The notes beneath the pieces are model-generated. The model made no database searches and was not told where the DNA came from. It saw only the letters and a list, made by a program, of their open reading frames with translations. A program made the position numbers and the translations under genes. Below are positions 39,017 through 64,000 of a DNA stretch of 64,000 nucleotides, in pieces (the stretch's first letter is position 1; the number at the start of each line of letters is the position of its first letter). Source of the DNA: Ignavibacteria bacterium (lineage in GTDB: Bacteria; Bacteroidota; Ignavibacteria; Tepidaquicellales; Tepidaquicellaceae); NCBI GenBank assembly GCA_019187405.1, contig JABAQZ010000002.1, positions 1 to 64,000 of the forward strand. The letters are read 5' to 3'.

Positions 39017-39508
39017 TTATCTGTTTTCCTTTAGAAAATCCAATCGTTTTTTTAATTTTTCTTTAGGAACAAGCAGTTTATCTTTTCCAAAAATAGCTTC
39101 TTCCTGATTTGAGAAAACGAGCTCATATTCATCACTCATTACGATAGCTTCCTCCGGACATACTTCTTCACAAAATCCGCAAAAGATACATCTGACCATG
39201 TTTATCTCGAATTTTTCCGGATACCTTTCTTTATCTCTTTCTGTTTCACCTGCTTGCACTTCAATTGCCAGAGCAGGACAAACTCTCGAACATAAAGAAC
39301 ATGCAACGCATCTTTCCGTTCCGTCATCTTCCTGAACGAGAACAGGTCTTCCTCTGTATGAAGAAGGAGGATGCCATATTTCTTCAGGATATTGTCGTGT
39401 AAAAGTCGGCTGGAATACCTGCTTTATCGTAAGCCCCAAACCTTTTACAATTTGGGGAATATATGTCTGCTCGAAAAATGTTAAATCCTTTTTTTTTATA
39501 ATAGACAT
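39017..39508 (-). CDS. nuoI: NuoI-type 2x[4Fe-4S] ferredoxin subunit, detached from the nuo cluster
   Basis: A 163-residue complex I NuoI homologue. It has two ferredoxin motifs, [12 protein letters not shown] (from about 66) and [12 protein letters not shown] (from about 103), and the canonical '[15 protein letters not shown]' lead-in. These features are closer to the usual 14-subunit-complex NuoI than the copy at 55525-56013. The ATG overlaps the upstream T9SS gene by one base (TAATG) and one base separates its stop from the next T9SS gene. It could serve a second complex I encoded elsewhere or act as a soluble/peripheral electron carrier. Confidence 0.92.
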
Positions 39509-47248: not shown

Positions 47249-50200
47249 ATGATAAGGAAAAAAGTTACCATAGACGGGAATGAAGCTGCAGCAATTATTG
47301 CTCACAAGACAAATGAAGTTATAGCAATCTATCCTATTACTCCATCATCGCCAATGGGGGAGCTTTCAGATACATGGTCATCACTTGGACAGAAAAATAT
47401 ATGGGACAATGTTCCCACAGTAATAGAAATGCAGAGTGAAGGAGGCGCAGCCGGTGCAGTTCACGGAGCGCTTCAAAGCGGATCGCTAACTACTACATTC
47501 ACGGCATCACAGGGTTTGCTTTTAATGATACCGAATATGTACAAAATTGCCGGCGAGTTAACATCAACTGTATTTCATGTAACGGCAAGGTCTTTATCAG
47601 CACAAGCTCTTTCAATATTTGGAGATCATTCTGATGTAATGGCGACGAGGCAGACAGGATTTGCAATGCTGTGCTCAAATTCCGTTCAGGAAGTGATGGA
47701 CTTTGCATTAATATCACAAAAGGCGACGCTTGAAAGCAGAATTCCGTTCATGCATTTCTTTGATGGATTCAGAACATCACATGAAGTTATGAAAATTGAA
47801 AGCATACCTGAGGAAGTAATTAAAGCAATGATAGATCCTGAATTTGTAAAACAACATAGAAAGCGTGCCTTAACTCCAGATAATCCATTTATAAGGGGAA
47901 CTGCGCAAAATCCTGACGTTTATTTTCAAGGCAGGGAGACTGTTAACAAGTATTACAATGCCTGTCCGGGGATAACACAAAATGCAATGGACAAGCTGCA
48001 TGAATTTACCGGCAGAAAGTATAGTCTCTTTGATTACTATGGAGATCCGGAAGCCGAAAGGGTCATCGTAATGATGGGTTCAGGCTCGGAAACAGTCGAA
48101 GAGACAATTGATTATCTAAAAAATAACTTTAATGAAAAAACAGGATTGATTAAAGTAAGACTTTACAGACCATTTTCGACGGAGCATTTTATTAATAAAA
48201 TTCCAAAGACTGTAAAAAGCATCGCTGTTCTTGACAGAACAAAAGAGCCGGGAAGTCTTGGTGAACCGCTATATCTTGATGTAGTAACGGCTGTTTATGA
48301 ATCAATAGAAAGGAAGAAACTTGCGCTTAATCAATTTCCAAAAATAATCGGAGGCAGATACGGTCTTTCTTCAAAGGAATTTACTCCGGCTATGGTTAAA
48401 TCAATATTTGACGAATTAAAAAAGAATGAACCTAAAAATCATTTTACAATCGGAATAAATGATGACGTAACTTACACAAGTTTAGATTTTGACAAATCAT
48501 TTGAAATTAAGCATGAGGCTCAGACAAACTGTATGTTTTACGGACTTGGTTCTGACGGAACAGTAGGAGCAAACAAGAATTCAATTAAAATTATTGGAGA
48601 AGAGACGGATAATTTTGCACAGGGATATTTTGTCTATGATTCCAAGAAATCCGGTTCTACAACAGTATCACATTTACGCTTTGGCAAGAAACCGATAAAA
48701 TCCATTTATCTGATTCAGACAGCCGATTTTGTTGCATGTCATCAGTTTACGCTTCTTGAAAAATTTGACATGCTGAAGAACATAAAGAAAGGCGGAATAT
48801 TTCTTTTAAACAGTCCATACGGCAAGGATGAAATTTTTTCAAAGCTTCCTGAAAAAACCGGAAGACAGATCAAAGAAAAAGAATTAAATTTTTATGTCAT
48901 CGATGCTTACTCAGTGGGTAAGCAGACAGGAATGGGTTCAAAACTAAATACGATTATGCAGACTTGTTTTTTTGCAATTTCTGGAATCATGCCGCAAGAT
49001 GAAGCAATTGGTCATATAAAAAATTATATAAAGAAGACATACAGTTCAAAAGGCGAAGAAGTAGTTGCAAAAAATTTTCTTGCCGTTGACAAGGCAATAG
49101 AAAATTTGCATAAAGTTGACATCGAGAAAGCTATACTTGGAAATATACAGTTGCCTCCGGTTGTCTCACCAAAAGCTCCGGAATATGTTAGGACTACATT
49201 GTCAAAAATAATCGAAGGACTTGGCGATGAAGTTTCCGTAAGTCAGATGCCTGTTGACGGTACATTTCCATCGGCAACAGCCCAATGGGAAAAGAGAAAC
49301 ATTGCGCTTGAAGTTCCTGTCTGGGATCCTGACGTATGCATACAATGCGGAAAGTGTGCAATAATCTGTCCTCACGCTTCGATAAGAATAAAAGCTTATG
49401 ATGAAGATTTAATAAAGACTGCGCCGCCGAGTTTCAAATGGATGAGAGCAAAAGGAAAAGAGTTTGACGAAAAGACGGCATACACGATACAAGTTGCGGT
49501 GGAAGACTGCACAGGATGTTCTCTTTGTTATGAAATTTGTCCAGCGAAAAATAAGAAGGAAGTAAAGTTAAAAGCTCTTAACATGGCTGCTCAGGCGTCA
49601 TTAAGAAAAAAGGAAAGAGAAAACTGGGATTACTTTTTGAGCTTACCGGAAGTTGACAGAAGAAATGCACATGTCAGCACGGTAAAAGGCAGCCAGCTGC
49701 TTCAGCCGTTGTTTGAATTTTCCGGCGCTTGCTCGGGATGCGGCGAGACGCCTTATATAAAACTTGTTTCACAGTTATTTGGTGACAGGGCAATAATAGC
49801 AAATGCGACAGGATGTTCATCAATTTACGGTGGTAATTTACCTACAACGCCGTGGGCGGTAAATAAAGAAAACCGCGGACCTGCATGGTCAAATTCTTTA
49901 TTCGAAGACAATTCCGAGTTCGGACTTGGGATGAGATTATCAATTGACAAACACAGGGAAAATGCCGCAGAGCTTTTGAAAAAACTTTCGACTGAACTTG
50001 GTGAAAAATTTGTCATAGAAATTATAAATGCCGATCAGTCGGATGAAGCGGGCATTTATGAACAAAGAGAAAGAGTACGAATTTTAAAAGAAAAGCTTTT
50101 GGATATAAAAAATGAAAATTCAAATTTACTTCTGACGATAGCCGATTATCTTGTAAAAAAATCAGTTTGGATTATCGGCGGTGACGGCTGGGCTTATGAT

Positions 50201-50818
50201 ATTGGTTTTGGCGGACTCGATCACGTGATAGCATCAGGCAAGAACGTCAACATACTGGTACTTGATACGGAGGTTTATTCAAATACGGGTGGTCAAATGT
50301 CAAAGGCAACCGGACTCGGCGCTGTAGCAAAATTTGCATCTTCGGGAAAGTCCACATCAAAAAAAGATCTTGGATTAATGGCAATCAATTACGGAAATGT
50401 TTATGTAGCAAAAGTGGCAATGGGAGCAAACGACACACAGACATTAAGAGCATTTCTCGAAGCAGAATCTTATGACGGACCTTCATTAATCATTGCATAT
50501 TCTCACTGCATAGCACATGGAATTAACATGGCAAAAGCAATTGACAATCAGAAAGCAGCAGTAGACAGCGCATATTGGATATTATACAGATTTGATCCTC
50601 GGAATTTAGAAAAAGGATTAAATCCGCTCAAATTGGATTCAGGTGCGGCTAAGATTAAATTCAAGGACTATGCATATAAAGAAAACCGTTATAAGATGTT
50701 GAAAATGCTGATGCCGGAACATGCATCCGAGCTAATGAAGAAAGCTCAGGAAGCAGTTAATGAGCAATGGAAAAAATATGAACAGCTTGCAAAAGAAAAC
50801 GGAAAGAGTTCGGATTAA
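47249..50818 (+). CDS. nifJ: Pyruvate:ferredoxin (flavodoxin) oxidoreductase
   Basis: A single-chain 1189-residue POR. The domain order is alpha-like (EVIAIYPITPSSPMGEL), gamma-like (about 430-620), the two-cluster ferredoxin insert CIQCGKCAIICP (near 696) and CTGCSLCYEICP (near 754), and the beta/TPP domain with 'CSGCGETPYIKLVSQLFG' and 'IIGGDGWAYDIGFGGLDHV'. A late Cys in 'YSHCIAHGI' completes the proximal cluster set. It converts pyruvate and CoA to acetyl-CoA and CO2 with reduced ferredoxin, reversibly. Located 48 bases before the DHOD-like gene and upstream of nuoA. Confidence 0.98.
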   Translation: MIRKKVTIDGNEAAAIIAHKTNEVIAIYPITPSSPMGELSDTWSSLGQKNIWDNVPTVIEMQSEGGAAGAVHGALQSGSLTTTFTASQGLLLMIPNMYKIAGELTSTVFHVTARSLSAQALSIFGDHSDVMATRQTGFAMLCSNSVQEVMDFALISQKATLESRIPFMHFFDGFRTSHEVMKIESIPEEVIKAMIDPEFVKQHRKRALTPDNPFIRGTAQNPDVYFQGRETVNKYYNACPGITQNAMDKLHEFTGRKYSLFDYYGDPEAERVIVMMGSGSETVEETIDYLKNNFNEKTGLIKVRLYRPFSTEHFINKIPKTVKSIAVLDRTKEPGSLGEPLYLDVVTAVYESIERKKLALNQFPKIIGGRYGLSSKEFTPAMVKSIFDELKKNEPKNHFTIGINDDVTYTSLDFDKSFEIKHEAQTNCMFYGLGSDGTVGANKNSIKIIGEETDNFAQGYFVYDSKKSGSTTVSHLRFGKKPIKSIYLIQTADFVACHQFTLLEKFDMLKNIKKGGIFLLNSPYGKDEIFSKLPEKTGRQIKEKELNFYVIDAYSVGKQTGMGSKLNTIMQTCFFAISGIMPQDEAIGHIKNYIKKTYSSKGEEVVAKNFLAVDKAIENLHKVDIEKAILGNIQLPPVVSPKAPEYVRTTLSKIIEGLGDEVSVSQMPVDGTFPSATAQWEKRNIALEVPVWDPDVCIQCGKCAIICPHASIRIKAYDEDLIKTAPPSFKWMRAKGKEFDEKTAYTIQVAVEDCTGCSLCYEICPAKNKKEVKLKALNMAAQASLRKKERENWDYFLSLPEVDRRNAHVSTVKGSQLLQPLFEFSGACSGCGETPYIKLVSQLFGDRAIIANATGCSSIYGGNLPTTPWAVNKENRGPAWSNSLFEDNSEFGLGMRLSIDKHRENAAELLKKLSTELGEKFVIEIINADQSDEAGIYEQRERVRILKEKLLDIKNENSNLLLTIADYLVKKSVWIIGGDGWAYDIGFGGLDHVIASGKNVNILVLDTEVYSNTGGQMSKATGLGAVAKFASSGKSTSKKDLGLMAINYGNVYVAKVAMGANDTQTLRAFLEAESYDGPSLIIAYSHCIAHGINMAKAIDNQKAAVDSAYWILYRFDPRNLEKGLNPLKLDSGAAKIKFKDYAYKENRYKMLKMLMPEHASELMKKAQEAVNEQWKKYEQLAKENGKSSD

Positions 50819-50866: not shown

Positions 50867-51862
50867 ATGGATTTATCGACTAACTACATGGGGATAAGAT
50901 TAAAAAATCCCATTGTCCCTTCGGCATCTCCCCTATCAAAATCTGTTGATTCGGTTAAGAGACTCGAGGATGCCGGGGCTTCTGCAGTAGTTGTTTACTC
51001 TTTGTTTGAAGAGCAGATAACTCATGAATCAAACGAGCTCGATCATTATCTATCTTATGGAACCGAAAGTTATGCGGAATCTCTTTCATACTTTCCACAC
51101 ATTGAAGACTTTAATTACGGACCTGATGAATATCTTGAGCATATAAGAAAAATAAAAAAGTCAGTTGACATACCTATTTTCGGAAGTTTAAACGGATTTT
51201 CAAGCGGAGGATGGATGAAATATGCAAAGCTCATCGAAGAAGCCGGAGCTAACGGTTTAGAATTGAATGTATATTATATACCAACAGACATAGAGGCAGA
51301 CAGCAGTAAAGTCGAAGAGATTTATGTTAGAGATTTGATAGAAGTTAAGCAAAATCTTAATATACCTGTTGCCATGAAACTGAGTCCGTTTTTTTCATCA
51401 CTGCCAAATATAGCCAAGAGATTGGAGATTGCTGGAGCAGATGCGCTTGTATTATTCAACAGATTTTATCAGCCTGATTTTGATCTTAACAATCTTGAAG
51501 TAGTTCCTAATTTAGAATTGTCGAGCAACTGGGAAATGAGACTTCCGCTGAGATGGATTGCATTACTTTACGGAAAAATAAATACAAGTTTTGCGGCAAC
51601 TACCGGGATTCACACTCATCTTGACGTTTTAAAAATGCTGATGGCAGGAGCTGATGTCACGCAGTTATGTTCTGAACTTCTTCATAACGGCATAAAAAGA
51701 ATAACCGAGATAATAAGGAGTCTTGAAATCTGGATGCTTGAAAACGAATACAATTCCGTTCATCAGATGAAAGGCAGCATGAGTCAGAAATCGGTTGCCG
51801 ATCCATCGGCATTTGAAAGAGCAAATTATATGAAAGCGCTGAATACATATAAGCAAATGTGA
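50867..51862 (+). CDS. Dihydroorotate-dehydrogenase-like FMN protein
   Basis: A 331-residue TIM-barrel flavoprotein resembling DHOD/PreA ('[19 protein letters not shown]', 'LEEAG..' style repeats, '[20 protein letters not shown]'). The DHOD substrate motif 'NxSCPN' is replaced by LNVYYIPTD, so it is unlikely to be the true PyrD. Homologues annotated 'dihydroorotate dehydrogenase-like' commonly sit beside nifJ in other genomes, from memory. Position between nifJ and nuoA hints at a flavin redox role tied to ferredoxin metabolism, which is inference. Confidence 0.85.
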
Positions 51863-51960: not shown

Positions 51961-52311
51961 TTGAATACCGAAGCTTTAATATTATTTTTCATAGTAGGAC
52001 TGGCAATGGTAGGCGGAGGTATTATCATTTCAACAATACTTGCTCCTAAGTCAAAAAATCCAGTCAAAGAAGAAACATACGAATGCGGAATTCCCACGCA
52101 AGGAGCTTCGTGGCTTCAGTATAAAATAGGATATTATTTATTCGCCATAATATTTTTAATTTTTGATGTAGAAATTATTTTCATGGTTCCGTGGGCGGTT
52201 GTAATGAAAGATTATGGATTTACGGCATTTGTTGAAATAATTATTTTTCTAATGATTGTAGCATTGGGTTTGATATATGCATATAAGAAGAAAGTTTTGA
52301 GGTGGGATTAA
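51961..52311 (+). CDS. nuoA: Complex I subunit A
   Basis: A 116-residue membrane subunit with three helices. The conserved loop '[20 protein letters not shown]' carries the Cys of the Q-site switch loop, followed by '[17 protein letters not shown]'. The start is TTG at 51961. It is first of an 11-gene run with spacing of 1-25 bases; the nuoB ATG is one base after its stop. Confidence 0.96.
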
Positions 52312-52312
52312 A

Positions 52313-52849
52313 ATGGAAAATAAAATTCCAGATGATTTTCCGGGAACAGTAACTTCAACACCGGGCGGAAATATAGTAGTAACGACAATAGACGGTATAA
52401 TAAACTGGTCAAGAGCAAATTCGCTTTGGCCTTTAGTATTCGGTACGAGCTGCTGTGCAATTGAAATGATGGCGACAGGAGCATCAAGGCATGACTGGGC
52501 AAGATTCGGAACGGAAGTAGCACGAGCAACTCCGAGGCAGGCTGATTTGATAGTAATTGCAGGAACAATTGTAAATAAAATGGCTCCTGTATTAAAAAGA
52601 CTTTATGATCAGATGGCAGAGCCAAAGTATGTAATTGCAATGGGCGCTTGTGCAATTTCCGGAGGACCATTCTATTATAACTCCTATTCAGTAGTAAAAG
52701 GAGCAGATCATGTAATTCCCGTAGATGTATATGTGCCGGGGTGTCCCCCGCGACCGGAAGCTTTGCTTTACGGATTAATGCAGCTGCAGGAAAAAATAAA
52801 AACGGAATCAATTGTAAGACCGAGAGACCCCGAAGAGGATTATCGCTGA
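52313..52849 (+). CDS. nuoB: Complex I subunit B (N2 cluster)
   Basis: 178 residues. The tandem Cys of cluster N2 is in [12 protein letters not shown] (about 43-54), with the further ligands in '[16 protein letters not shown]' and '[15 protein letters not shown]' (from about 141). It passes electrons from the peripheral arm to quinone. One base separates it from both nuoA and nuoC. Confidence 0.97.
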
Positions 52850-52850
52850 C

Positions 52851-53312
52851 ATGAATAATGAAGAATTAAAACAAAAAATAAATACATTAACGGATAAAGC
52901 TGAATTTTCAGAAGAAGGTTCGGAATTTTTAAATGTAATAATACCTCCGGAGGCTTTACACTCGCTTGCATCTTCACTGAAGTTTGATAACGATACAAAG
53001 TTTGATTTTTTATTCTGTCTTTCTGGTGTTGACTGGATAACACATCTGATGACGGTATATCATCTTACATCTACTGAATTAAAGCATACATTAGTTTTAA
53101 AAGTAAAGATACATGACAGGGAAAATCCCGAGGTTGATACTGTTTGCGACTTATGGAGAACGGCGGAGTTTCATGAAAGAGAAGTTTACGATTTATTCGG
53201 TATTAAATTCAGAAATCATCCGGATTTAAGAAGAATTTTGCTTGATGACGACTGGAAAGGATTTCCATTAAGAAAAGATTATAAAGATGAAGTAAACATT
53301 GTGGAGTTTTGA
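52851..53312 (+). CDS. nuoC: Complex I subunit C (30 kDa)
   Basis: 153 residues. The signature is 'VCDLWRTAEFHEREVYDLFG' followed by 'FRNHPDLRRILLDDDWKG'. This is a structural subunit of the Q module, here separate from NuoD (not a CD fusion). The TGA stop overlaps the nuoD ATG (TGATG). Confidence 0.95.
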   Translation: MNNEELKQKINTLTDKAEFSEEGSEFLNVIIPPEALHSLASSLKFDNDTKFDFLFCLSGVDWITHLMTVYHLTSTELKHTLVLKVKIHDRENPEVDTVCDLWRTAEFHEREVYDLFGIKFRNHPDLRRILLDDDWKGFPLRKDYKDEVNIVEF

Positions 53313-54427
53313 TGGAAGATTTATTGAATAAAGCAGAGACACAGGAATATTTCATAAATATGGGACCTCAGCATCCTTCGACACACGGGGTGTTGAGACT
53401 TATGCTTACTCTTGACGGTGAAATAATTAAAAAAGTCGAGCCGCATCTCGGATACATTCACCGCTCAATTGAAAAGATGAGTGAAAAAGATTCATATTAT
53501 CAAATGGTTCATCTCACTGACAGAATGGATTATCTGTCTTGTCACATAAATAATGAAGCTGTCTGTCTTGCTATAGAAAAGGGACTTCAGCTTGAAATTC
53601 CCGACAGAGTAAAATACATTAGAACAATAATTTCCGAATTAACACGCTTATCTTCTCATCAGCTTTGGTGGGGAGTGATGGGAATGGATTTAGGAGCCAT
53701 AACAACTTTTCTTTACGGATTCAGGGACAGAGAAATGATTACAGATATTTTTGAGGAAACATGCGGTGCGAGACTAACGATGAATTACAATGTTCCGGGA
53801 GGACTTATGTTTGACATTCACCCTAATTTTCAGAAAAGGACAAAAGATTTCATTAAGCATTTCAAAAAGAAACTTCCGGAATATGATGAACTGCTTTCAG
53901 GTAACATTATATTTACAGAAAGGACAAAGGATATTGGATATCTTTCAAAAGAAGATGCAATATCATACGGGGTTACAGGACCTTCGGGAAGAGGCTCGGG
54001 ATTTGCATGTGATGTAAGAAAGAGGATTCCTTACAGCGCTTATGACAAAGTTGAATTTAAAGAAATTATTTATACGGAAGGAGATTCGTTTGCCAGATAC
54101 AAAGTGCGCATGGATGAAATGAAAGAATCTTTGTATATAATAGAGCAGCTGATAGATAACATTCCCGAAGGAGATTTCAAAGCAAAAACCAAAGCCGTAA
54201 TAAAACTTCCGGATGGTGAATATTACCAGCGGGTCGAGACAGCAAGAGGAGAACTCGGAGTATATATTATCAGCGACAACAAAAAAAACCCATACAGGGT
54301 AAAATACAGATCACCCGGATTTTCGAATTTATCTGCGCTCGATACAATGGCGCGAGGCGGAAAAATAGCCGACCTTGTGGCAATGATGTCAACGCTTGAT
54401 TTGGTAATTCCGGATATTGACAGATAA
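53312..54427 (+). CDS. nuoD: Complex I subunit D (49 kDa)
   Basis: About 371 residues from ATG 53312, which overlaps the nuoC stop as TGATG; a TTG just before it (53309) also opens the frame. 'NMGPQHPSTHGVLRLML' holds the quinone-site His pair. 'LGYIHRSIEKM' and 'TDRMDYLSCHINNEAVCLA' match the hydrogenase-like fold without Ni ligands, and the C-terminal 'VIPDIDR' is canonical. It ends 4 bases before the preferred nuoH start. Confidence 0.96.
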   Translation: MEDLLNKAETQEYFINMGPQHPSTHGVLRLMLTLDGEIIKKVEPHLGYIHRSIEKMSEKDSYYQMVHLTDRMDYLSCHINNEAVCLAIEKGLQLEIPDRVKYIRTIISELTRLSSHQLWWGVMGMDLGAITTFLYGFRDREMITDIFEETCGARLTMNYNVPGGLMFDIHPNFQKRTKDFIKHFKKKLPEYDELLSGNIIFTERTKDIGYLSKEDAISYGVTGPSGRGSGFACDVRKRIPYSAYDKVEFKEIIYTEGDSFARYKVRMDEMKESLYIIEQLIDNIPEGDFKAKTKAVIKLPDGEYYQRVETARGELGVYIISDNKKNPYRVKYRSPGFSNLSALDTMARGGKIADLVAMMSTLDLVIPDIDR

Positions 54428-54431
54428 ACTT

Positions 54432-55520
54432 ATGAATTTTAATATTTACGATTTTACTGAATTTATAATTTCCATAGATAACTGGCTGAAGCAGTTATTG
54501 TCACCCGGACTTGCCAAAATTACCGGCATGGCTTTAATCGGAGTAACCTTCCTTTTATTCGTAACGCTTTTGGGACTATCGATTGTTTACATTGAAAGAA
54601 AAGTCTGCGCTTTTTTTCAGCAGAGGCTTGGTCCGATGAGAGTGGGATTTTGGGGAACAGCCCAGACAATTGCCGACATAATCAAATTGATTTTCAAGGA
54701 ACCGCTTGCAACTAAAAACTCGGATAAATTTTTATTTAACTTGGCAGCATTCATCGTTCTGATATCTCCGTTCATGGTAATTGCCGTCGTTCCATTTGCC
54801 AAAGGATTACATGCCCTGGATTTTGACATCGGATTGTTTTATGTAACGGCGGTTTCATCTTTGGGAGTAACGGGAATTCTGCTTGCAGGTTGGTCGAGTA
54901 ATAACAAATACTCTCTCATCGGAGCAATGAGAAGCGGCGCGCAGATAATCAGTTATGAATTATCGATAGGTCTGTCGCTGCTTGCAATAGTCATTCTTAC
55001 CGGAAGTCTTCAGTTGTCTGTAATTGTCGAGTCTCAAAGAGACGGATGGTGGATTTTCAAAGGCAACATACCGGCTATTGTGGCTTTTATTATTTTCATC
55101 ATTGCAAGTACAGCAGAAAGTAACAGAGGACCGTTTGATCTTGCAGAAGCTGAATCTGAACTGACAGCCGGTTTTCATACTGAATATTCCGGAATAAAAT
55201 TCGCCTTCTTTTTTCTTGCAGAATATGTGAATCTTTTTATCATAGCTGCAATTGGCGCGACAGTTTTTTTCGGAGGTTGGATGCCTCTTCACATCGGCAA
55301 TTTTACCTTTTTCAATGAAGCAATGGATATTATTCCTCCAATAATCTGGTTTTTCGCAAAAGTAGCCGCGCTTATATTTCTTTTAATGTGGTTTAAATGG
55401 ACATTCCCGAGATTAAGAATAGATCAGCTATTACAGTTGGAATGGAAATATCTATTGCCGTTGAGCATTTTAAATTTAGTTTTAATGACAATAGTTTCTT
55501 TAACCGGATGGCATTTGTAA
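54432..55520 (+). CDS. nuoH: Complex I subunit H
   Basis: About 362 residues from ATG 54432 (MNFNIYDFTEF); a TTG at 54417 would overlap nuoD. It is an eight-helix membrane subunit at the quinone channel: 'ERKVCAFFQQRLGPMRVG', 'FKEPLATKNSDKFLFNLA', 'IASTAESNRGPFDLAEAE' and 'ELTAGFHTEYSGIKFAFFFL'. All conserved Glu/Asp positions of the E-channel region look present by eye. Confidence 0.96.
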   Translation: MNFNIYDFTEFIISIDNWLKQLLSPGLAKITGMALIGVTFLLFVTLLGLSIVYIERKVCAFFQQRLGPMRVGFWGTAQTIADIIKLIFKEPLATKNSDKFLFNLAAFIVLISPFMVIAVVPFAKGLHALDFDIGLFYVTAVSSLGVTGILLAGWSSNNKYSLIGAMRSGAQIISYELSIGLSLLAIVILTGSLQLSVIVESQRDGWWIFKGNIPAIVAFIIFIIASTAESNRGPFDLAEAESELTAGFHTEYSGIKFAFFFLAEYVNLFIIAAIGATVFFGGWMPLHIGNFTFFNEAMDIIPPIIWFFAKVAALIFLLMWFKWTFPRLRIDQLLQLEWKYLLPLSILNLVLMTIVSLTGWHL

Positions 55521-55524
55521 TTTT

Positions 55525-56013
55525 ATGATCAAAGCAATTATAAATTATTTTAAAGAAATATTTACCGCATGCAGGACTCTGATTACCGGCATGAAGGTAA
55601 CGGGATATTACTTTTTTCATCCGAAAGAGATCATTACGCAGCAGTATCCGGAGAACAGAGCTACTCTGCAAATGTTTGACAGATTCAGAGGCGAAGTAGT
55701 GCTTTTACATGACGAAAACAATGAACACAAATGTACCGGCTGCTCTGCATGCGAGATTGCATGTCCAAATGGATCTATCGAGATAATAAGCAAGAAAGAA
55801 ATCGATCCGGAAACAAGTAAACCCAAAAAGGCAATTGATAAATTTGTTTATCATTTATCGATGTGTACATTTTGCAATTTATGCATACTCGCCTGCCCCA
55901 CCGATGCCATTAAAATGTCAAAAAGTTTTGAACACTCAGTATATGACAGATCAAAACTTACAAAAGTATTAAACAAACCGGGTTCAAAAATTATGGCAGG
56001 GATAAAAGAATAA
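55525..56013 (+). CDS. nuoI: Complex I subunit I, divergent copy in the nuo operon
   Basis: 162 residues with two ferredoxin motifs, CTGCSACEIACP (from about 70) and CTFCNLCILACP (from about 114), expected to hold N6a/N6b. The lead-in 'YPENRATLQMFDRFRGEVVL' and the Lys-rich linker (EIDPETSKPKKAIDKF) differ strongly from the other NuoI at 39017-39508. It would be the entry of electrons in a complex lacking NuoEFG. The nuoJ ATG follows directly at its stop. Confidence 0.95.
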   Translation: MIKAIINYFKEIFTACRTLITGMKVTGYYFFHPKEIITQQYPENRATLQMFDRFRGEVVLLHDENNEHKCTGCSACEIACPNGSIEIISKKEIDPETSKPKKAIDKFVYHLSMCTFCNLCILACPTDAIKMSKSFEHSVYDRSKLTKVLNKPGSKIMAGIKE

Positions 56014-56517
56014 ATGGAGACGACAATATTTTATATTTTTGCGATTGTAATTTTAATTTTCTCCGTGCTTGCAGTTACTAGCAGAAGAATATTAAGAGCA
56101 GCAGTATATTTTCTTTTTGTATTGCTTGCAGTTGCCGGATTATTTTTTCTGCTTAGTTTTAATTTTCTGGCTGCTGTACAGCTTACCGTTTATGCAGGTG
56201 GAATCATTGTCCTTTTTATATTTTCAATTATGTTAACAAGTCAGGTAAATGACAAACTTGAGCCTATAGCTGCAAAAAAAATAATATTTTCTTTACTTGC
56301 AGCAATTGCAGGCGCAGTAGTCTGCATATCGGCTATTATGACATACAGATTTTCCGAACCTAAAAATATAGAGGTTGATGCAGGCATGAAAACTATCGGA
56401 AAGTACTTGCTGAGTTACGGAGAAAACGGTTATGCGCTGCCATTTGAAGTAATCAGCTTGCTTTTGCTTGCATCGCTAATTGGGGCAATTATGATTGCTA
56501 AAAGGGATAATACATAA
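56014..56517 (+). CDS. nuoJ: Complex I subunit J
   Basis: A 167-residue subunit with five membrane segments: 'SRRILRAAVYFLFVLLAVAG', 'AVQLTVYAGGIIVLFIFSIM' and a C-terminal 'FEVISLLLLASLIGAIMIAK'. The conserved 'YAGGI' helix 3 is intact. It abuts nuoI with no gap. Confidence 0.95.
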   Translation: METTIFYIFAIVILIFSVLAVTSRRILRAAVYFLFVLLAVAGLFFLLSFNFLAAVQLTVYAGGIIVLFIFSIMLTSQVNDKLEPIAAKKIIFSLLAAIAGAVVCISAIMTYRFSEPKNIEVDAGMKTIGKYLLSYGENGYALPFEVISLLLLASLIGAIMIAKRDNT

Positions 56518-56536
56518 TGGTTAAATATAATTATTT

Positions 56537-56854
56537 ATGATTGAAAATATCGGAATAGAAAAATTTGTAATACTTAGCACGCTAATGTTTTTCATTGGAG
56601 TTTACGGTTTTCTTGTCAGGAAAAATCTTATTACTATTTTGATTTCAGTGGAAATAATACTTAATTCCGTTAACATAAATTTTGTAGCTTTCAATAAATA
56701 TCTGTATCCCGAAAATCTTCAAGGACAGTTTTTTGCACTATTCATTATTGCGATTGCTGCAACCGAAGCTTCGGTTGCCATTGCAATTTTTGTAACCTTA
56801 TACAGAAGAATAAAGATGATTGATGTTGAGAATGTTAATAAGATGAAATACTAA
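56537..56854 (+). CDS. nuoK: Complex I subunit K
   Basis: 105 residues, three helices: 'LSTLMFFIGVYGFLVRKNLI', 'ISVEIILNSVNINFVAF' (conserved proton-channel Glu) and 'FIIAIAATEASVAIAIFVTL' (second Glu). Standard NuoK length. Confidence 0.95.
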   Translation: MIENIGIEKFVILSTLMFFIGVYGFLVRKNLITILISVEIILNSVNINFVAFNKYLYPENLQGQFFALFIIAIAATEASVAIAIFVTLYRRIKMIDVENVNKMKY

Positions 56855-56878
56855 AAAATGTTAATACTACTTTAAGCT

Positions 56879-58804
56879 ATGGAAATTTTTAATATCACCG
56901 GCATAATTCCGATAATACTGTTTGCTTCTTTTCTCTTTACGGGACTTGCCGGAGGCAGGCTGAAGCCAATGGTTTCCGGAATTACAGGAACACTTAGTAT
57001 TTTCATTGTTACTGCTGTTTCATATTATACGGCTTACAAATATTTTTTTGAATTTGGCAAAGCAGGTAATGAATATATTAAGATAATTCCCTTCAATTTG
57101 ATGTGGCTTCAGTTTAATGACACTTTATTCATTAACATGGGAATTCTTCTTGATCCGATTTCAGTAATGATGCTGATAGTTATATCTACTGTTTCTCTAA
57201 TGGTTCACTTATACAGTCTCGGTTATATGAAAGGTGAAACCGGATTCGCAAGATTTTACTCATTTTTGTCTTTGTTTACTTTTTCAATGATAAGTCTTGT
57301 AATTTCAACCAATCTTTTTCAGACTTATATTTTCTGGGAGCTTGTTGGAATATCTTCATATCTATTAATCGGATATTACTACAGCAAGCCGTCTGCAGTT
57401 GCCGCATCGAAAAAAGCTTTTATTGTAACCCGGTTTGCTGATCTTGGATTTTTAATTGGCATTCTTATTCTATCATACATTACAAAGACATTTGAATATA
57501 CAACTTTAACTGATCCAAACGGAAGCGCCATTAATCAGGGAAGTTCAGTTTTGTTTTTAGGATTATCTGCAATGAATGTTACTTTGATTCTGATTTTCAT
57601 TGGGTGTGCGGGAAAGTCTGCAATGTTTCCTCTTCATATATGGCTTCCGGATGCAATGGAAGGACCTACTCCTGTTTCGGCATTGATTCATGCAGCGACT
57701 ATGGTTGTTGCCGGTGTTTATTTAATTGCAAGATTATTTCCTCTTTACATTTTCTCCGGAGCCGATGCGTTAAATGTAATTGCTTTTATCGGTACTTTTA
57801 CTTCACTGTTTGCGGCTTTGATAGCAACAACACAGATGGATATAAAGAGGATATTGGCATTTTCCACGATATCACAGATTGGTTTCATGATAATGTCTCT
57901 CGGAGTTTCCGGATACGGAGATACGAACGGACTTGGTTTTACTGCTTCAATGTTTCATTTGTTTACGCATGCAATGTTTAAAGCATTGCTTTTCCTTTGT
58001 GCAGGCGCCGTTATTCACGCTATACATTTAAACAACCTTAACGAAATGGGAGGTTTGCGAAAGTATTTGCCGGTTACACACATAACATTTTTAATTGCAT
58101 GCCTGGCAATATCAGGTATTCCCCCCTTCTCCGGATTTTTCAGCAAAGATGAAATACTTACTGCAGCTTTTGCAAAGAATAAACTGATATTTACAACAGC
58201 GCTTATCACTGCCGGAATTACTGCTTTTTATATGTTCAGATTATATTTCGGAATTTTCTGGAACAAAGAAGTCAAGTATGATAAGACGCCTCATGAAGCT
58301 CCAAAAACAATGACAACAGCTTTGATAATACTTGCAGTTGGTTCGGCAATAACCGGATTTATTCCCTTTGGCAATTTTGTTTCGAGCAACGGAGTTCCGC
58401 TCGAGTCACACATTCATTTTGAAATTGCAATTCCCGCAGTAATTACAGCATTAGTGGGAATTTTCGTTGCATACATTTTTTATAAAAAGGAAAATAATCT
58501 ACCTGTGAGAGTTTCTTCTGCTGTAGGCGGATTATACGGCATTATTTACAGAAAATTTTTTATTGACGAAATTTATATTTTTATTACTAAAGGTCTGATA
58601 TTCAGATTTATCTCCGGACCGGTTGTTTGGTTTGACAGGCACATTGTTGATGGTACAATGAACGGCATTGCTTTTATTACGAATTTAGTTTCGGAAAAAA
58701 TAAAGTATTTTCAGTCAGGGCAGGTTCAGCAATATGCGTATGTCATGCTTTCCGGAATCATTATTATTGTGATTACTGTAATTTATATTTTGTCAAACTT
58801 ATGA
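56879..58804 (+). CDS. nuoL: Complex I subunit L (antiporter-like)
   Basis: 641 residues. The antiporter core has 'WELVGISSYLLIGYYYSKPS' (key Glu in TM5), 'ADLGFLIGILI', 'KSAMFPLHIWLPDAMEGPTP' (Lys in TM7) and 'KALLFLCAGAVIHAI', with a C-terminal extension (from about 490) expected to form the long lateral helix HL. It pumps protons (or Na+) at the distal tip of the membrane arm. Confidence 0.97.
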   Translation: MEIFNITGIIPIILFASFLFTGLAGGRLKPMVSGITGTLSIFIVTAVSYYTAYKYFFEFGKAGNEYIKIIPFNLMWLQFNDTLFINMGILLDPISVMMLIVISTVSLMVHLYSLGYMKGETGFARFYSFLSLFTFSMISLVISTNLFQTYIFWELVGISSYLLIGYYYSKPSAVAASKKAFIVTRFADLGFLIGILILSYITKTFEYTTLTDPNGSAINQGSSVLFLGLSAMNVTLILIFIGCAGKSAMFPLHIWLPDAMEGPTPVSALIHAATMVVAGVYLIARLFPLYIFSGADALNVIAFIGTFTSLFAALIATTQMDIKRILAFSTISQIGFMIMSLGVSGYGDTNGLGFTASMFHLFTHAMFKALLFLCAGAVIHAIHLNNLNEMGGLRKYLPVTHITFLIACLAISGIPPFSGFFSKDEILTAAFAKNKLIFTTALITAGITAFYMFRLYFGIFWNKEVKYDKTPHEAPKTMTTALIILAVGSAITGFIPFGNFVSSNGVPLESHIHFEIAIPAVITALVGIFVAYIFYKKENNLPVRVSSAVGGLYGIIYRKFFIDEIYIFITKGLIFRFISGPVVWFDRHIVDGTMNGIAFITNLVSEKIKYFQSGQVQQYAYVMLSGIIIIVITVIYILSNL

Positions 58805-58817
58805 TACAAGTTAAATC

Positions 58818-60305
58818 ATGTTAATTCCACTATTAATTATACCGACGATTACAATATTTTTAATATTAGTTTGCAGAAGCCACAAGCAAGTTAAAGTGGT
58901 TTCAGCGGCAGGAATGGCGCTGCAGTTAATTTATTCCATTTATGTTTTAATCGAATATTTAAATTTAAGAAGTCTTGGAAATATCGAAGAAATGCTTTTT
59001 GTACAGAGTTATCAATGGTTTGAGTCTTTTAATATTTATTTCACGGTAGGGTTAGACGGAATTTCTGCTTCACTTGCAGTATTAACTGCCATTGTAACTT
59101 TTTCCGGAGTTCTGGCAACATGGGGACTCGAATATAGAGTAAAAGAATTTTTCATTTCGCTGATAGTATTATCAACCGGTGTTTATGGATTTTTCATTTC
59201 GCTGGATCTCTTTACAATGTTTATGTTTTACGAACTTGCAGTCATCCCCATGTATTTATTGATTGGCATCTGGGGAAGCGGCAAAAAGGAATATTCTGCA
59301 ATGAAGCTGACGTTAATGCTTATGGGAGCTTCCGCAGTACTGCTCGTTGGAATAATAGGACTTTACGCTAATTCCGGCAGCGGAGACAATCTTACATACA
59401 ACATTCTTGAACTTGCAAAACTAAATCTGCCGCTTGATGTTCAGAAATTTTTATTCCCATTAATATTTGTAGGATTCGGAGTACTTGGAGCATTGTTTCC
59501 GCTGCATACCTGGTCGCCTGACGGTCATTCATCGGCGCCAACTGCAGTATCGATGCTTCATGCAGGAGTATTAATGAAAATGGGAGGATACGGCTGCTTA
59601 AGAGTAGCAATGTATTTACTGCCTGAAGCTGCAAATGAGCTGGGATGGATTTTCATTGTACTTACCACAATAAGCGTTGTTTACGGAGCCTTCGGCGCTA
59701 TAGTTCAAAAAGATCTTAAATACATCAACGCATACTCTTCCGTAAGCCATTGCGGGCTTGTGCTGTTTGCAATTTTAATGAGTAATAAAATTTCACTCAA
59801 TGGTTCGGTTATACAAATGATTTCACATGGATTAATGACTGCTCTTTTCTTTGCATTGATTGGTATGATTTATGAGAGGACACACACCAGAGACATCAAC
59901 CTAATGGGCGGACTCATGAAGACTATTCCGTTTCTTTCTGTAAGCTATATGATCGCGGGGTTTGCATCTCTTGGACTTCCGGGATTAAGCGGATTTGTGG
60001 CTGAGATGACAATATTCGTAGGTGCATTTCAATATTCGGATACTTTTCACAGAACAGCGACAATCATTGCCTGCGCATCAATCGTCATAACGGCAGTTTA
60101 CATTCTCAGAGTAGTTGGAAAATTACTTCTCGGACCTGTGGAAAACAAAGATTATCTTACATTCAGGGATGCTTTCTGGAATGAAAGAGCTGTTGCGGTG
60201 ATTCTGATAATTGCGATTGCCGGCATCGGCATTGCTCCATTATGGCTTTCGGACATGATTACCAACAGTCTTAATCCCATTATTTTAAAACTCAGAAGTT
60301 TTTGA
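58818..60305 (+). CDS. nuoM: Complex I subunit M (antiporter-like)
   Basis: 495 residues with 14 predicted helices. It has 'TVGLDGISASLAVLTAIVT', 'FMFYELAVIPMYLLIGIWG', 'LGALFPLHTWSPDGHSSAPT' and 'KDLKYINAYSSVSHCGLVLF'. Key Glu/Lys of the proton half-channels are present. It lies 13 bases after nuoL. Confidence 0.97.
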   Translation: MLIPLLIIPTITIFLILVCRSHKQVKVVSAAGMALQLIYSIYVLIEYLNLRSLGNIEEMLFVQSYQWFESFNIYFTVGLDGISASLAVLTAIVTFSGVLATWGLEYRVKEFFISLIVLSTGVYGFFISLDLFTMFMFYELAVIPMYLLIGIWGSGKKEYSAMKLTLMLMGASAVLLVGIIGLYANSGSGDNLTYNILELAKLNLPLDVQKFLFPLIFVGFGVLGALFPLHTWSPDGHSSAPTAVSMLHAGVLMKMGGYGCLRVAMYLLPEAANELGWIFIVLTTISVVYGAFGAIVQKDLKYINAYSSVSHCGLVLFAILMSNKISLNGSVIQMISHGLMTALFFALIGMIYERTHTRDINLMGGLMKTIPFLSVSYMIAGFASLGLPGLSGFVAEMTIFVGAFQYSDTFHRTATIIACASIVITAVYILRVVGKLLLGPVENKDYLTFRDAFWNERAVAVILIIAIAGIGIAPLWLSDMITNSLNPIILKLRSF

Positions 60306-60306
60306 T

Positions 60307-61725
60307 ATGACGATAGATCAGTTTTTATTAATGAAAAATGAAATACTGCTTATAGCAATTGCTGTAATAGTATTGATTATTGATTTAATGACGGATAACA
60401 AAAAAATCTTATTTCCGGTTATGATTATTCTTTTTATTTTTACCACAGTAATCGGATTTATATACCAGACTGACGGCGAATTATTTGGAGGCATGTATAG
60501 ATCAACTCCGCTGATTAACATGATGAAGAATATACTCAATACGGGAGTATTAATAATTCTTCTTCAGTCTGCAGGATGGCTGATTAACAAAGCAGAAAAT
60601 CATGAAAACATAGGTGGTTTCTGTTTTATTTTGATCTCATCGCTTGCAGGAATGTGCTTCATGATTTCATCGGGAGATTTTCTGATGTTTTATCTCGGAC
60701 TTGAACTTGCGACAATTCCAATTGCTGCGCTTGTAGCTTATGAAAAAATGAAATTTTTATCGGCTGAAGCAGGAACGAAATTTATTTTATCTGCCGTGTT
60801 GTCTTCGGGAATTTTGCTGTATGGGATTTCTATTTTATACGGAACAAATGGTTCGATTTTATTTAAGGACTTAAATAATTCCGTAGAAATTACAAATCTT
60901 CAAGCGCTTGCATTCATTTTTATATTATCCGGGATTGCTTTTAAAATTTCTCTTGTGCCATTCCACTTATGGACGGCTGATGTATATGAAGGCGCACCGG
61001 TCAATATTACATCCTTTTTATCATCAATTTCAAAAGCTGCATCGGTTTTTATACTTTTAATTTTATTATTCACCGTGTTTATAAATTTTTCCGAAATCTG
61101 GAACGAACTGCTGGTATATCTATCAATTCTGACAATGACAATCGGTAATCTGTTTGCTATCAGACAGCAAAACCTGAAAAGATTTCTTGCATTTTCTTCC
61201 ATTGCCCAGGCAGGATTCATTCCGCTGGGATTTATCGGAGGCACATCATTAGGCGCGTCAACAGTACTTTACTTTTTATTGATCTATGTTTTTTCTAATC
61301 TGGGAGCTTTTGGAGTTGTATCAGTGGTAACTTCAGCAACGGGAAAAGAAAGCATGAATGATTATAATGGCTTCTACAAGACTAACAGAGGATTAAGCAT
61401 AGTTATGATGCTTTCACTATTTTCGCTTGCCGGAATACCGCCTGTTGCAGGGTTTTTCTCCAAATTCTTTTTATTCACAATTGCTGCAAAGCAGGGATAT
61501 TATTTTTTACTTTTCATTGCCGTCATTAATGCAACAATCTCATTGTATTATTATCTTCTGGTTGTAAAAGCAATGTTTATAAATGAGAATGAACAACCGA
61601 TCGAAAAAATTACAAGTGATGTTTACGCAAAACTCGGACTTGCAATCTGTGTACTTGGCATAGTATTCACCGGTCTTTTCGGAATAATTTTTGATTATAT
61701 AAATACTCTTTCAAAAGGAATTTAA
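60307..61725 (+). CDS. nuoN: Complex I subunit N (antiporter-like)
   Basis: 472 residues with the third antiporter-like fold: 'FLMFYLGLELATIPIAALVA', 'SLVPFHLWTADVYEGAPVNI', 'RQQNLKRFLAFSSIAQAGFI' and 'LAGIPPVAGFFSKFFLFTIA'. It starts one base after the nuoM stop and ends the recognisable nuo genes; a small unknown gene follows after 22 bases. Confidence 0.97.
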   Translation: MTIDQFLLMKNEILLIAIAVIVLIIDLMTDNKKILFPVMIILFIFTTVIGFIYQTDGELFGGMYRSTPLINMMKNILNTGVLIILLQSAGWLINKAENHENIGGFCFILISSLAGMCFMISSGDFLMFYLGLELATIPIAALVAYEKMKFLSAEAGTKFILSAVLSSGILLYGISILYGTNGSILFKDLNNSVEITNLQALAFIFILSGIAFKISLVPFHLWTADVYEGAPVNITSFLSSISKAASVFILLILLFTVFINFSEIWNELLVYLSILTMTIGNLFAIRQQNLKRFLAFSSIAQAGFIPLGFIGGTSLGASTVLYFLLIYVFSNLGAFGVVSVVTSATGKESMNDYNGFYKTNRGLSIVMMLSLFSLAGIPPVAGFFSKFFLFTIAAKQGYYFLLFIAVINATISLYYYLLVVKAMFINENEQPIEKITSDVYAKLGLAICVLGIVFTGLFGIIFDYINTLSKGI

Positions 61726-61747: not shown

Positions 61748-62077
61748 ATGGCATTGGGAAAAGGCAAAACAATCATTAAGGAAATTGACGGAATCAGATG
61801 TGTTGTTGTAGAATCAGGAATTGACGAGTTAAGATTAAATTTTCTGAAAAAAATTCTTGAATACAACGGATATGAAGTAAAGACCGAAACAATACCTTCA
61901 AAATCAGACGATCAGCCCCCTGCTTATACACTTTATGTAACTGACATCATATTCAATCCAGTCATTTCGGTCTATGGAAGGAGATTAAGAACACCGGAAA
62001 ACAAGATACTTACTCCTCAATACTGGAATGGAAAACCCGAAGAATCAGATAAATGGTACTGGGATGCTGAAAGTTAG
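61748..62077 (+). CDS. Small protein of unknown function at the end of the nuo run
   Basis: 109 residues, soluble, no signal peptide. The N-terminal half looks like a small alpha/beta unit (IIKEIDGIRCVVVESGID, 'LRLNFLKKILEYNGYEVKTE'). The C-terminal part 'YTLYVTDIIFNPVISVYGRR' is followed by 'TPQYWNGKPEESDKWYWD' with several Trp. I recognise no family. It lies 22 bases after nuoN on the same strand, so it is probably co-transcribed; a complex I accessory role is only suggested by position. Confidence 0.75.
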   Translation: MALGKGKTIIKEIDGIRCVVVESGIDELRLNFLKKILEYNGYEVKTETIPSKSDDQPPAYTLYVTDIIFNPVISVYGRRLRTPENKILTPQYWNGKPEESDKWYWDAES

Positions 62078-62138: not shown

Positions 62139-63179
62139 TCAGGCAATTTCCCATGTTTTATCACCGGATAAAATCTTATTCAAAGATGGTTTCCCTTTTT
62201 TCTTTGTTATAGCTTCAATTTGTTCAGCCATTACATTTTCATAAGTCGGTCTTTCACTTGAAAAGAGAATACCGAAAGGCCGCGGCATGTGCTGGTTGTC
62301 TTTTTTATAATCAGCAAATCCTGCCAGTATGTTAGCTTTTATTTTATCTTTTTCATCATGAATCCAGAGATCATTTAAGGAAACGTTATCATTTTTCAGA
62401 TCAACGATGACAGGTTCGAATCCGTCAAACCTTATTCCCTTATCGTCCGAATCACCAAACACCAACGGCTTTCCATGTTCAAGATAAAGCGTTTCGATTT
62501 TTTTTGTTTCTTTTTCGCTGTAAACAAAAAATGCGCCTTCATTAAACACGGGACAATTCTGATAGATTTCCACAAATGAAGTACCTTTGTGTTCGTTGGC
62601 TTTTGTTAAAATAGTTTTCATGTGTTTTGGATCTCTGTCGAGAGTCCTGGCAACGAATGTTCCGTTTGCTCCCAAAGCAAGCTCAGCCGGATTAAACGGC
62701 TGTTCGACAGAGCCATAAGGAGTGGATTTAGTAATTTTACCAGCTTCTGAAGTCGGTGAATACTGTCCTTTAGTCAATCCATAAATCTGATTATTAAAAA
62801 GCAAAACATTTAAATCGAAATTCTTTCTTAGCAAATGAATGAAATGATTGCCTCCTATTGAAAGAGCATCTCCGTCGCCTGTTACAACCCAGACGCTGAG
62901 ATCAGGTCGAACGGCTTTTAATCCGGAAGCAATTGCTGTCGCTCTGCCGTGTATTGAATGGATTCCGTAAGTATCCATGTAATATGGAAATCTCGAAGAG
63001 CAGCCGATTCCTGAAATAAATACAAAATCTTCCTTGTCAATTCCCAAATCAGGAAAAATTGTCTGAACCTGTTTTAAAATAGAATAATCGCCGCAACCGG
63101 GACACCACTTTACGTCAAGGTCAGGAGCGAAATCTTTATATGTAAGTTTTTCTTTAACTTCCGAAGTTTCAGTTGCCAT
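62139..63179 (-). CDS. korB: 2-oxoacid (2-oxoglutarate):ferredoxin oxidoreductase beta subunit
   Basis: 346 residues. 'WCPGCGDYSILKQVQTIFP' and 'SGIGCSSRFPYYMDTYG' give cluster Cys, and the TPP site is 'VWVVTGDGDALSIGGNHF', followed by 'LLFNNQIYGLTKGQYSPTSE'. Together with KorA it would interconvert 2-oxoglutarate/CoA and succinyl-CoA/CO2 with ferredoxin. Its ATG overlaps the korA 3' end by 11 bases. It runs convergent to the nuo operon. Confidence 0.94.
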   Translation of the reverse strand: MATETSEVKEKLTYKDFAPDLDVKWCPGCGDYSILKQVQTIFPDLGIDKEDFVFISGIGCSSRFPYYMDTYGIHSIHGRATAIASGLKAVRPDLSVWVVTGDGDALSIGGNHFIHLLRKNFDLNVLLFNNQIYGLTKGQYSPTSEAGKITKSTPYGSVEQPFNPAELALGANGTFVARTLDRDPKHMKTILTKANEHKGTSFVEIYQNCPVFNEGAFFVYSEKETKKIETLYLEHGKPLVFGDSDDKGIRFDGFEPVIVDLKNDNVSLNDLWIHDEKDKIKANILAGFADYKKDNQHMPRPFGILFSSERPTYENVMAEQIEAITKKKGKPSLNKILSGDKTWEIA

Positions 63180-64000
63180 TTAAATTAATATTTAATATTT
63201 CCAAAATTTTGTTTTTAATTTCCGTTGATGTAAAAGGAAGACCTTGAATTTTATTGAAGCCGATTGCCGGTATTAGAAATCTGTCTCTGATAATTTTTAT
63301 GAGCTGACCGTTATTAATTTCCGGTATCAATACTTTATCAAATTTTCTAATAAGTTCTTCAAGATTTTCAGGGAACGGATTAAGATATCTTAAGTGCAGA
63401 TGTGCAATATCAATACCCTGATCTATTAGTTCGTCAATGCCTGTTTTAATTGATCCATAAGTTGATCCCCATCCGATCACAAGTAGTTTTGAATTTTCAT
63501 TCCCGGAATCAAATTCAAGTTTTGGAATGAACTCGGATATTTTATCTATCTTCGCCGCTCTTAACTTTACCATCAATTCATGGTTTTTTGCTTCATAAGA
63601 TATGTCGCCTGTTTCATTTTCTTTCTCAAGTCCGCCGATCCTGTGTTCAAGTCCTTTTGTACCGGGCAAAACTCTCGGTCTCACATAATCTTTGTTTCTT
63701 TTATATGGAAGAAAAACATCATTCTCTGAATTTGGTTTATCGGTAAAGACAACATTAATTGGTTTGAGTTTATCTTCTGTTGGAAATCTCCATGGTTCAG
63801 CTCCATTTGCAATGTAACCGTCGCTTAATACAATTACAGGTGTCATGTGTTCCTGAGCTATTTTGCAGGCTTCATAAACAACTTCAAAACAATCTGAAGG
63901 AGATTCCGGAGCAATCACCGGCATTGGACATTCACCGTGCCTGCCGTACATTGCCTGAAGTAAATCCGACTGTTCGGTTTTTGTCGGAAGACCTGTAGAA
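63169..64000 (-). CDS. korA: 2-oxoacid (2-oxoglutarate):ferredoxin oxidoreductase alpha subunit, truncated by window end
   Basis: The frame stays open to the last base, so this is the C-terminal ~277 residues of a larger gene (KorA usually about 600). The reading just inside the edge gives STGLPTKTEQSDLLQAMYGR, the family hallmark, so the ATG at 63951 is internal and not the start. Later segments are 'PSDCFEVVYEACKIAQEHMT' and 'VIGWGSTYGSIKTGIDEL'. The gene encodes the substrate-binding part of KOR. The 3' end overlaps korB. Confidence 0.93.
   Translation of the reverse strand, partial: STGLPTKTEQSDLLQAMYGRHGECPMPVIAPESPSDCFEVVYEACKIAQEHMTPVIVLSDGYIANGAEPWRFPTEDKLKPINVVFTDKPNSENDVFLPYKRNKDYVRPRVLPGTKGLEHRIGGLEKENETGDISYEAKNHELMVKLRAAKIDKISEFIPKLEFDSGNENSKLLVIGWGSTYGSIKTGIDELIDQGIDIAHLHLRYLNPFPENLEELIRKFDKVLIPEINNGQLIKIIRDRFLIPAIGFNKIQGLPFTSTEIKNKILEILNINLNGN

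Follow-up and report, generated by a model that had tools for sequence, protein, structure and literature searches.

Where do electrons enter a complex I whose operon has no genes for the NADH module, and why does the same genome keep a second, different NuoI nearby? Both questions are raised by a 64,000-nucleotide stretch of DNA from an Ignavibacteria bacterium (positions 1 to 64,000 of contig JABAQZ010000002.1, assembly GCA_019187405.1; hereafter the window). It contains an operon, nuoABCDHIJKLMN (51961-61725), that encodes 11 complex I subunits and includes no nuoE, nuoF or nuoG; we refer to operons of this kind as headless. A further nuoI gene stands by itself in the same window. We consider it quite probable that two complex I enzymes are encoded. 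The headless operon would specify a ferredoxin:quinone oxidoreductase that also pumps protons, and the solitary NuoI would serve in an NADH-type complex whose genes are scattered over the genome.

Two divergent NuoI homologues

The operon NuoI is encoded by an open reading frame (ORF) of 162 amino acids on the plus strand (55525-56013), and the solitary NuoI by one of 163 amino acids on the minus strand (39017-39508). A reading of the window from its letters and ORFs (the sequence-only reading) had described two NuoI homologues about 16 kb apart; both ORFs are present, separated by 16,017 bases. Each protein carries the CxxCxxCxxxCP motif twice, confirming what had been said of the operon copy. 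In the operon NuoI the first [4Fe-4S] motif, CTGCSACEIACP, lies at 55732-55767 and the second, CTFCNLCILACP, at 55864-55899, and a lysine-rich hairpin occupies the interval between them (55768-55863). The second motif has Ile-Leu where the solitary copy has Glu-Glu, within a CEExCP motif.

The two proteins are 29% identical across 135 residues. The curated cut-off of the NuoI model TIGR01971 is 113.05 bits; the solitary protein scores 139.3 bits and is canonical, and the operon protein scores 93.4 bits (E 7.2e-27), below the cut-off. The operon copy is a divergent NuoI by its motifs, gene order and homology, not by the TIGR01971 cut-off. Its lead-in had been called unusual. However, this segment aligns with the usual (R/S)(Y/F)RG..VL..D pattern and is normal within its own clade, so we discarded it as a special trait.

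The settings of the two genes also differ. The operon nuoI is placed between nuoH and nuoJ, and the solitary nuoI has no nuo neighbour, either here or in any of the 15 relatives with a recognised ORF (17 regions fetched). It is flanked by genes for two secreted-looking proteins (38347-39015 and 39508-40269) with no evident metabolic link, both of which end in what looks like a type IX sorting sequence. In one relative (G004, C364:10157-10513) the match to canonical NuoI covers positions 9-121 and includes two in-frame TGA codons, which could stem from misassembly, from decay of the gene or from recoding.

Phylogeny and distribution of headless NuoI

Relatives were searched in 40 genomes, 25 from the window's family and 15 from a sister family of the same order, and a NuoI above the cut-off was identified in 38 of them. 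A second NuoI in a headless operon occurs in two kinds, separated by similarity to the window's genes: type X, which resembles the window's operon copy, in 8 of the 25 family genomes, and type Y in 10. Neither kind was found in the other 7 family genomes or in any of the 15 sister-family genomes. None of the 40 genomes carries both kinds together. Type Y proteins (L080-L089) have a long, charged C-terminus.

We placed the proteins in a NuoI tree of 80 rows, leaving out C_G025 and P_G154, which the ORF caller had missed. The solitary type falls on the side of the E. coli, Thermus and plant mitochondrial proteins. Type X forms one group of 29 rows (support 100/99), and types X and Y, together with cyanobacterial NdhI, lie on the opposite side (99/91). 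The window's two copies are not a recent duplicate pair: their positions on opposite sides of the tree, together with their low identity, rule this out.

A scan of named genomes returned 462 loci related to type X, of which the best 80 were kept. These include loci from Ignavibacteria, Cyclobacteriaceae, Flavobacterium, Salegentibacter, Chitinophagaceae and Hydrotalea. Type X is an old, Bacteroidota-wide kind of headless complex, because its NuoI sequences group together in the tree and its loci extend across Ignavibacteria, Flavobacterium, Chitinophagaceae and others. The divergence of NuoI is old and clade-wide, and not specific to this genome.

A second complex I scattered over the genome

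A second complex I elsewhere had been suggested as the home of the solitary NuoI. All 14 genes for such a complex were identified in the source genome (3.78 Mb, 38 contigs, 98.1% complete; the window lies on contig C19), but they are scattered and do not form a cluster. They were located by family searches for NuoB, D, F, G, H, I and L/M/N and by examination of the neighbouring stretches. The genes nuoAB lie on C2; nuoCDEF on C8, with nuoJ 6.6 kb further along; nuoG on C24; nuoH on C4; nuoI, the solitary copy, on C19; nuoKL on C7; nuoM on C9; and nuoN on C29. The 14 subunits thus occupy nine places, and G, H, I, J, M and N each stand alone. The same family searches, which were run genome-wide, gave two strong places each for NuoB, D, H and I, and six for L/M/N together.

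Three proteins of the scattered set score below their model cut-offs: NuoG (452.1 versus 470.05 bits), NuoA (116 versus 155) and NuoJ (127.9 versus 154). The scattered NuoG (L078:4502-6181) is short, at 559 amino acids, and matches positions 1-341 of a 606-position model. From the gene complement we infer that the solitary NuoI belongs to this 14-subunit complex I and that the set forms one assembled enzyme. A scattered layout of complex I genes has already been reported for Ignavibacteria.

The genome also encodes a further NuoE/F/G-like set on C1 (L026:4783-8330), outside both complex I gene sets, whose NuoF-like protein scores under the NuoF cut-off. We take this set to be, probably, the diaphorase part of a hydrogenase.

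Sequence marks at the electron entry face

Column comparison showed that the second cluster motif of 14-subunit NuoI reads CxxCxxC-EE-xCP. Both glutamates are present in 27 of 27 solitary-type sequences, in none of 84 type X sequences and in none of 10 of type Y. The first residue after the third cysteine is Ile or Val throughout type X (84/84; this set leaves out the named records L097-L103, which resemble relatives already included) and Val throughout type Y (10/10). For a phylum sample, 40 of 90 listed NuoI places were hand-chosen across families; 38 were parsed, and the other two regions yielded no NuoI. By the time the marks were noticed, seven of the 10 headless sequences in this sample and one of the 20 14-subunit ones had already been seen. 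In this sample the same position is Val or Thr in all 10 other headless NuoI, and Glu in all 20 NuoI that adjoin nuoE/F/G (19 with EE, one with ED) and in all 8 solitary ones. The latter (L244-L246, L249, L251-L254; ORFs of 218-273 amino acids) carry the EE pair and are therefore predicted to belong to scattered 14-subunit complexes in their own genomes.

The hairpin between the two motifs provides another contrast. A KK or KxK motif occurs there in 81 of the 84 type X proteins, in all 10 of type Y and in 9 of 10 other headless ones, and is also present in NdhI. It was found in 1 of 27 solitary-type proteins and, in the phylum sample, in 3 of 20 14-subunit and none of 8 solitary proteins. In the cyanobacterial complex, according to passages of a cryo-EM study, ferredoxin binds NdhI and NdhH, with Lys86, Lys89 and Lys91 of Thermosynechococcus NdhI in contact, and the electron is taken up by cluster N6a in NdhI (PMC7021789). 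A long NdhI hairpin loop is named in passages of a further cryo-EM paper (PMC6992706). By residue count on the 6hum_I row, the three lysines fall in the hairpin equivalent to the lysine-rich one. Because the ferredoxin-contacting lysines lie in the same hairpin, the lysine-rich linker is the most telling feature that the sequence-only reading picked out. The motif is well conserved, but the net charge of the linker is just about +1.

NuoD shows a related difference. The segment that spans one of its loops measures 41-46 amino acids in 74 of 74 type X and 45-46 in 9 of 9 type Y proteins. In the phylum sample it measures 45-48 in all 10 headless and 70-73 in all nine 14-subunit proteins, and it is 70 in the scattered NuoD. 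About 25 residues are thus missing from all examined headless Bacteroidota NuoD. The contrast at the second motif and the hairpin of NuoI supports the proposal that headless and 14-subunit NuoI diverged at the point of electron entry.

The operon, its neighbours and the missing NADH module

The operon begins with nuoA (51961-52311) and continues on the plus strand with nuoB (52313-52849), encoding the N2 subunit, nuoC (52851-53312) and nuoD (53309-54427), whose product is without the approximately 25-residue loop of the examined 14-subunit NuoD. Then follow nuoH (54417-55520), nuoI, nuoJ (56014-56517), nuoK (56537-56854), nuoL (56879-58804), nuoM (58818-60305) and nuoN (60307-61725). The passage from nuoD directly to nuoH bears out the earlier claim that the operon complex has no NuoEFG. 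We made locus counts over the best 80 of the 462 type X-related loci. In these 80, no ORF has nuoE, F or G as its best match, and nuoD and nuoH are at most 400 bases apart in 69 of the 74 loci that hold both (the five others have gaps of -49 to 758).

A NuoF-type domain was found in 16 of 18 type X genomes searched. It was not found (E 0.001) in G142, which is one contig and 100% complete, or in G163, the Salegentibacter flavus genome (locus L157), whose completeness is not stated. Judging from these two genomes, NuoEFG is probably dispensable for the type X complex.

In the window the operon is bracketed by two 2-oxoacid-type enzymes. Upstream, on the plus strand, is pyruvate:ferredoxin (flavodoxin) oxidoreductase (POR; 47249-50818; TIGR02176, 1849.8 bits, cut-off 911.35). 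Downstream, from 62139 onward on the minus strand, is KorAB. The KorB-like 2-oxoacid:ferredoxin oxidoreductase beta subunit (62139-63179) scores 250.1 bits against a TIGR02177 cut-off of 261.9; all of its best models are under cut-off, and its TPP domain is above. The KorA-like alpha subunit is present in part (63169-63951), as its 623-amino-acid ORF extends beyond the window end (TIGR03710, 663.6 bits, cut-off 482.75). Across the loci, KorAB is found no more than 4 kb upstream of nuoA in 30 of the 56 with room for it and anywhere in 34 of 80; POR was identified in 8 of 80. In 19 of 25 loci a ferredoxin-like ORF lies no further than 1.5 kb from KorA. Two of these ORFs were tested, and one scores above the cut-off for YfhL 4Fe-4S ferredoxin and the other, FdxA-like, below.

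Between POR and nuoA the window encodes a dihydroorotate dehydrogenase-like protein (50867-51862, plus strand; NF005741, 471.8 bits, cut-off 303). A gene of this kind adjoins the type X operon in 2 of the best 80 loci (L104 and L133).

Electron entry and alternative explanations

We propose that the operon NuoI is a member of an old headless lineage, in which the entry face has no NuoG partner, and that it is unlike the solitary NuoI for this reason. POR and KorAB, both flanking the operon, would reduce ferredoxin, and the reduced ferredoxin would dock on the basic hairpin of NuoI. Electrons would then pass via N6a and N6b in NuoI to N2 in NuoB and on to quinone, and the membrane arm would pump protons. 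The reduction and pumping steps are predicted from the named enzyme families, and the docking step from the comparison with NdhI. The suggestion that NuoI diverged at electron entry gains from the motif and hairpin contrasts, the ferredoxin-linked neighbours and the two NuoF-negative genomes; ferredoxin docking, the other half of that suggestion, is inferred.

Several observations weigh against this reading. Some deep joins in the tree were flagged as possible long-branch artefacts, and the 27 solitary-type rows are close relatives. The p values from exact tests on the counts take no account of kinship. The second position of the glutamate pair is acidic in 28 of 84 type X proteins and also in NdhI, so only the first position discriminates; at that position plant mitochondrial NuoI, which is of the 14-subunit type, has Gln (Gln-Glu). 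A run of three lysines occurs in 74 of the 84 type X proteins and in all 10 of type Y, but in 1 of 10 other headless ones. The type X hairpin has an average net charge of +0.9, and the E. coli NuoI hairpin has +2 without a KK motif. Since the E. coli hairpin is already so charged, we dropped whole-protein net charge (means of +1.9 for type X, +1.6 for type Y and -1.6 for the solitary type) as a weak argument. Cyanobacterial NdhH keeps the NuoD loop, so its loss is not simply a mark of lost NuoG, and we rejected it as a pure NuoG marker. KorAB or POR is found in just 41 of 80 loci, so that their linkage to the operon is frequent but not general. The search for ferredoxin genes covered the surroundings of KorA in other genomes.

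The operon complex might borrow NuoEFG from the scattered set, in which case both NuoI would be NADH-driven and would differ by drift alone. The nuoEFG genes are indeed present in this genome, and at least one NuoF-type domain occurs in 16 of the 18 type X genomes searched. However, G142 and G163 have a type X operon and no NuoF-type domain was found in them, the best 80 of 462 loci showed none of the genes nuoE, F and G, and all 84 type X proteins have Ile or Val at the position where Glu stands in 20 of 20 NuoI adjoining nuoE/F/G. Borrowing therefore seems to us quite improbable. Electrons could also bypass free ferredoxin and be handed over directly by a partner enzyme, for example one of the 2-oxoacid oxidoreductases or a HydABC-like diaphorase. 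The closeness of KorAB to nuoA in 30 of 56 loci and the NuoEFG/Hyd-like set on C1 would fit such a transfer, and direct transfer from a hydrogenase is raised for the Desulfitobacterium enzyme in passages of one paper (PMC11238625). We nevertheless judge it unlikely, given the ferredoxin-like ORFs beside KorA in 19 of 25 loci, the 39 of 80 loci with neither KorAB nor POR (many of them cut by contig ends) and the correspondence of the KK hairpin to the ferredoxin-binding one of NdhI.

A role without any electron input, as an ion antiporter or hydrogenase relative with NuoI under relaxed constraint, has a precedent in that antiport is discussed as a possible role of the headless Prevotella complex (in passages of PMC6560451). 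All 8 aligned close relatives, however, keep every cysteine and proline of both NuoI cluster motifs, the annotated loci preserve the operon order, and the NuoB of six relatives in the same family is 86-92% identical. Because these features indicate constraint and not decay, we give the antiporter explanation very little credence. A ferredoxin-fed complex beside an NADH-type one is the explanation that we favour.

sm109, a small gene after nuoN

A gene for an uncharacterised protein of 109 amino acids, which we call sm109 (61748-62077, plus strand), starts 22 bases after nuoN. It is found at most 400 bases after nuoN in 60 of the 61 loci with room for it, and 548 bases after it in the remaining locus, L159. 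By whole-genome search, sm109 is present in 8 of the 40 family and order genomes, which are exactly the 8 with type X, and in none of the other 32. Among 118 phylum genomes it is present in exactly the 4 with type X NuoI and in none of the 114 others. NuoI was found in the phylum search by likeness to type X; type X proteins scored at least 258 bits and the next 87, and 49 of the 118 genomes had no NuoI match. In G001 and G016, sm109 lies on a contig other than that of the fetched operon stretch, whose contig ends at nuoL or nuoN.

Neither Pfam nor NCBIfam gave a match to the window's sm109 at E 0.1. Searches with 49 members gave scattered weak hits, the best of which is DEC-1_N in 7 of 49 (E 0.00026), read as proline-rich linkers; two members match the NuoC model weakly (E 0.041). 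A profile of the family gave two weak matches in the PDB (best E 0.46). The AF2 model (pLDDT 80.3, pTM 0.70) has strands at residues 9-13, 16-25, 44-49 and 59-64 and helices at 27-39 and 71-76. Foldseek returned no match to this model at E 0.001 (best, PII-like GlnK3, E 0.14). The best VIA match is to EscJ (Z 5.6, 63 residues aligned at 4.5 Å), below a telling level. No NDH-1 subunit, NdhS, NdhV, NdhO, NdhM and NdhN included, is among the top 50 Foldseek or VIA matches listed, which excludes nothing.

We ruled out sm109 as a ferredoxin or cluster protein because its copies average 0.87 cysteine (62 copies), so that it carries no cluster. It is also mildly acidic (mean -2.8), which speaks against a simple basic cradle for ferredoxin. 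In the simplest reading, sm109 partners the type X complex in a structural, docking, gating or assembly role, and it is a candidate twelfth subunit. More tentatively, and as something possible rather than expected, sm109 could be located on the peripheral arm, close to the NuoI hairpin and to the site where the NuoD loop is missing, as an unnamed subunit that aids ferredoxin docking or electron gating and is an independent counterpart of the cyanobacterial set of NdhS, NdhV and NdhO. No protein of this description was recognised in the titles and abstract openings searched, or in passages of related papers.

Relation to known systems and significance

In its main lines the arrangement has precedents. 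Published passages propose for Melioribacter a 14-subunit complex accompanied by a headless one that ferredoxin may feed (PMC3534657), and describe such a pair in relatives of Ignavibacterium (PMC6338057). By these descriptions Melioribacter roseus, Ignavibacterium album and Ca. Thermonerobacter likewise have an 11-gene nuo operon without nuoEFG and a 14-subunit set elsewhere; the passages mention no gene after nuoN, no NuoI marks and no pair of headless types. The headless NDH-I of Prevotella, as described, also has 11 of 14 subunits and no NADH module, and the passages name neither an electron donor nor an accessory subunit (PMC6560451).

The cyanobacterial and chloroplast NDH-1, a ferredoxin:plastoquinone oxidoreductase, is likewise without NuoEFG, and according to passages of the two cryo-EM papers its ferredoxin binds a lysine hairpin of NdhI and electrons enter at N6a (PMC7021789, PMC6992706). 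The KK hairpin of type X NuoI has the corresponding position. It has its own set of small extra subunits (PMC7021789). Unlike type X NuoD, its NdhH retains the loop. A further headless complex I, similar by description, comes from a host that we take to belong to a phylum other than Bacteroidota. The donor proposed for it, in the passages concerned, is ferredoxin reduced by pyruvate:ferredoxin oxidoreductase, and these leave open whether extra subunits aid ferredoxin delivery, a point verifiable only by biochemistry (PMC11238625).

The divergence of the two NuoI is genuine and for the most part fits a kind already known; the additions are the contrast that sorts NuoI sequences and the linked gene sm109. 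Four handles have been gained on the question of which partner feeds headless complex I in organisms other than cyanobacteria: sm109, the NuoI hairpin, the discriminating position of the second motif, and G142, a complete genome that has this complex, gave no NuoF-type domain and so offers a setting free of an NADH module. Should the NuoI contrast extend to more genomes, NADH-type and headless NuoI in scattered or fragmentary genomes could be told apart by sequence alone.
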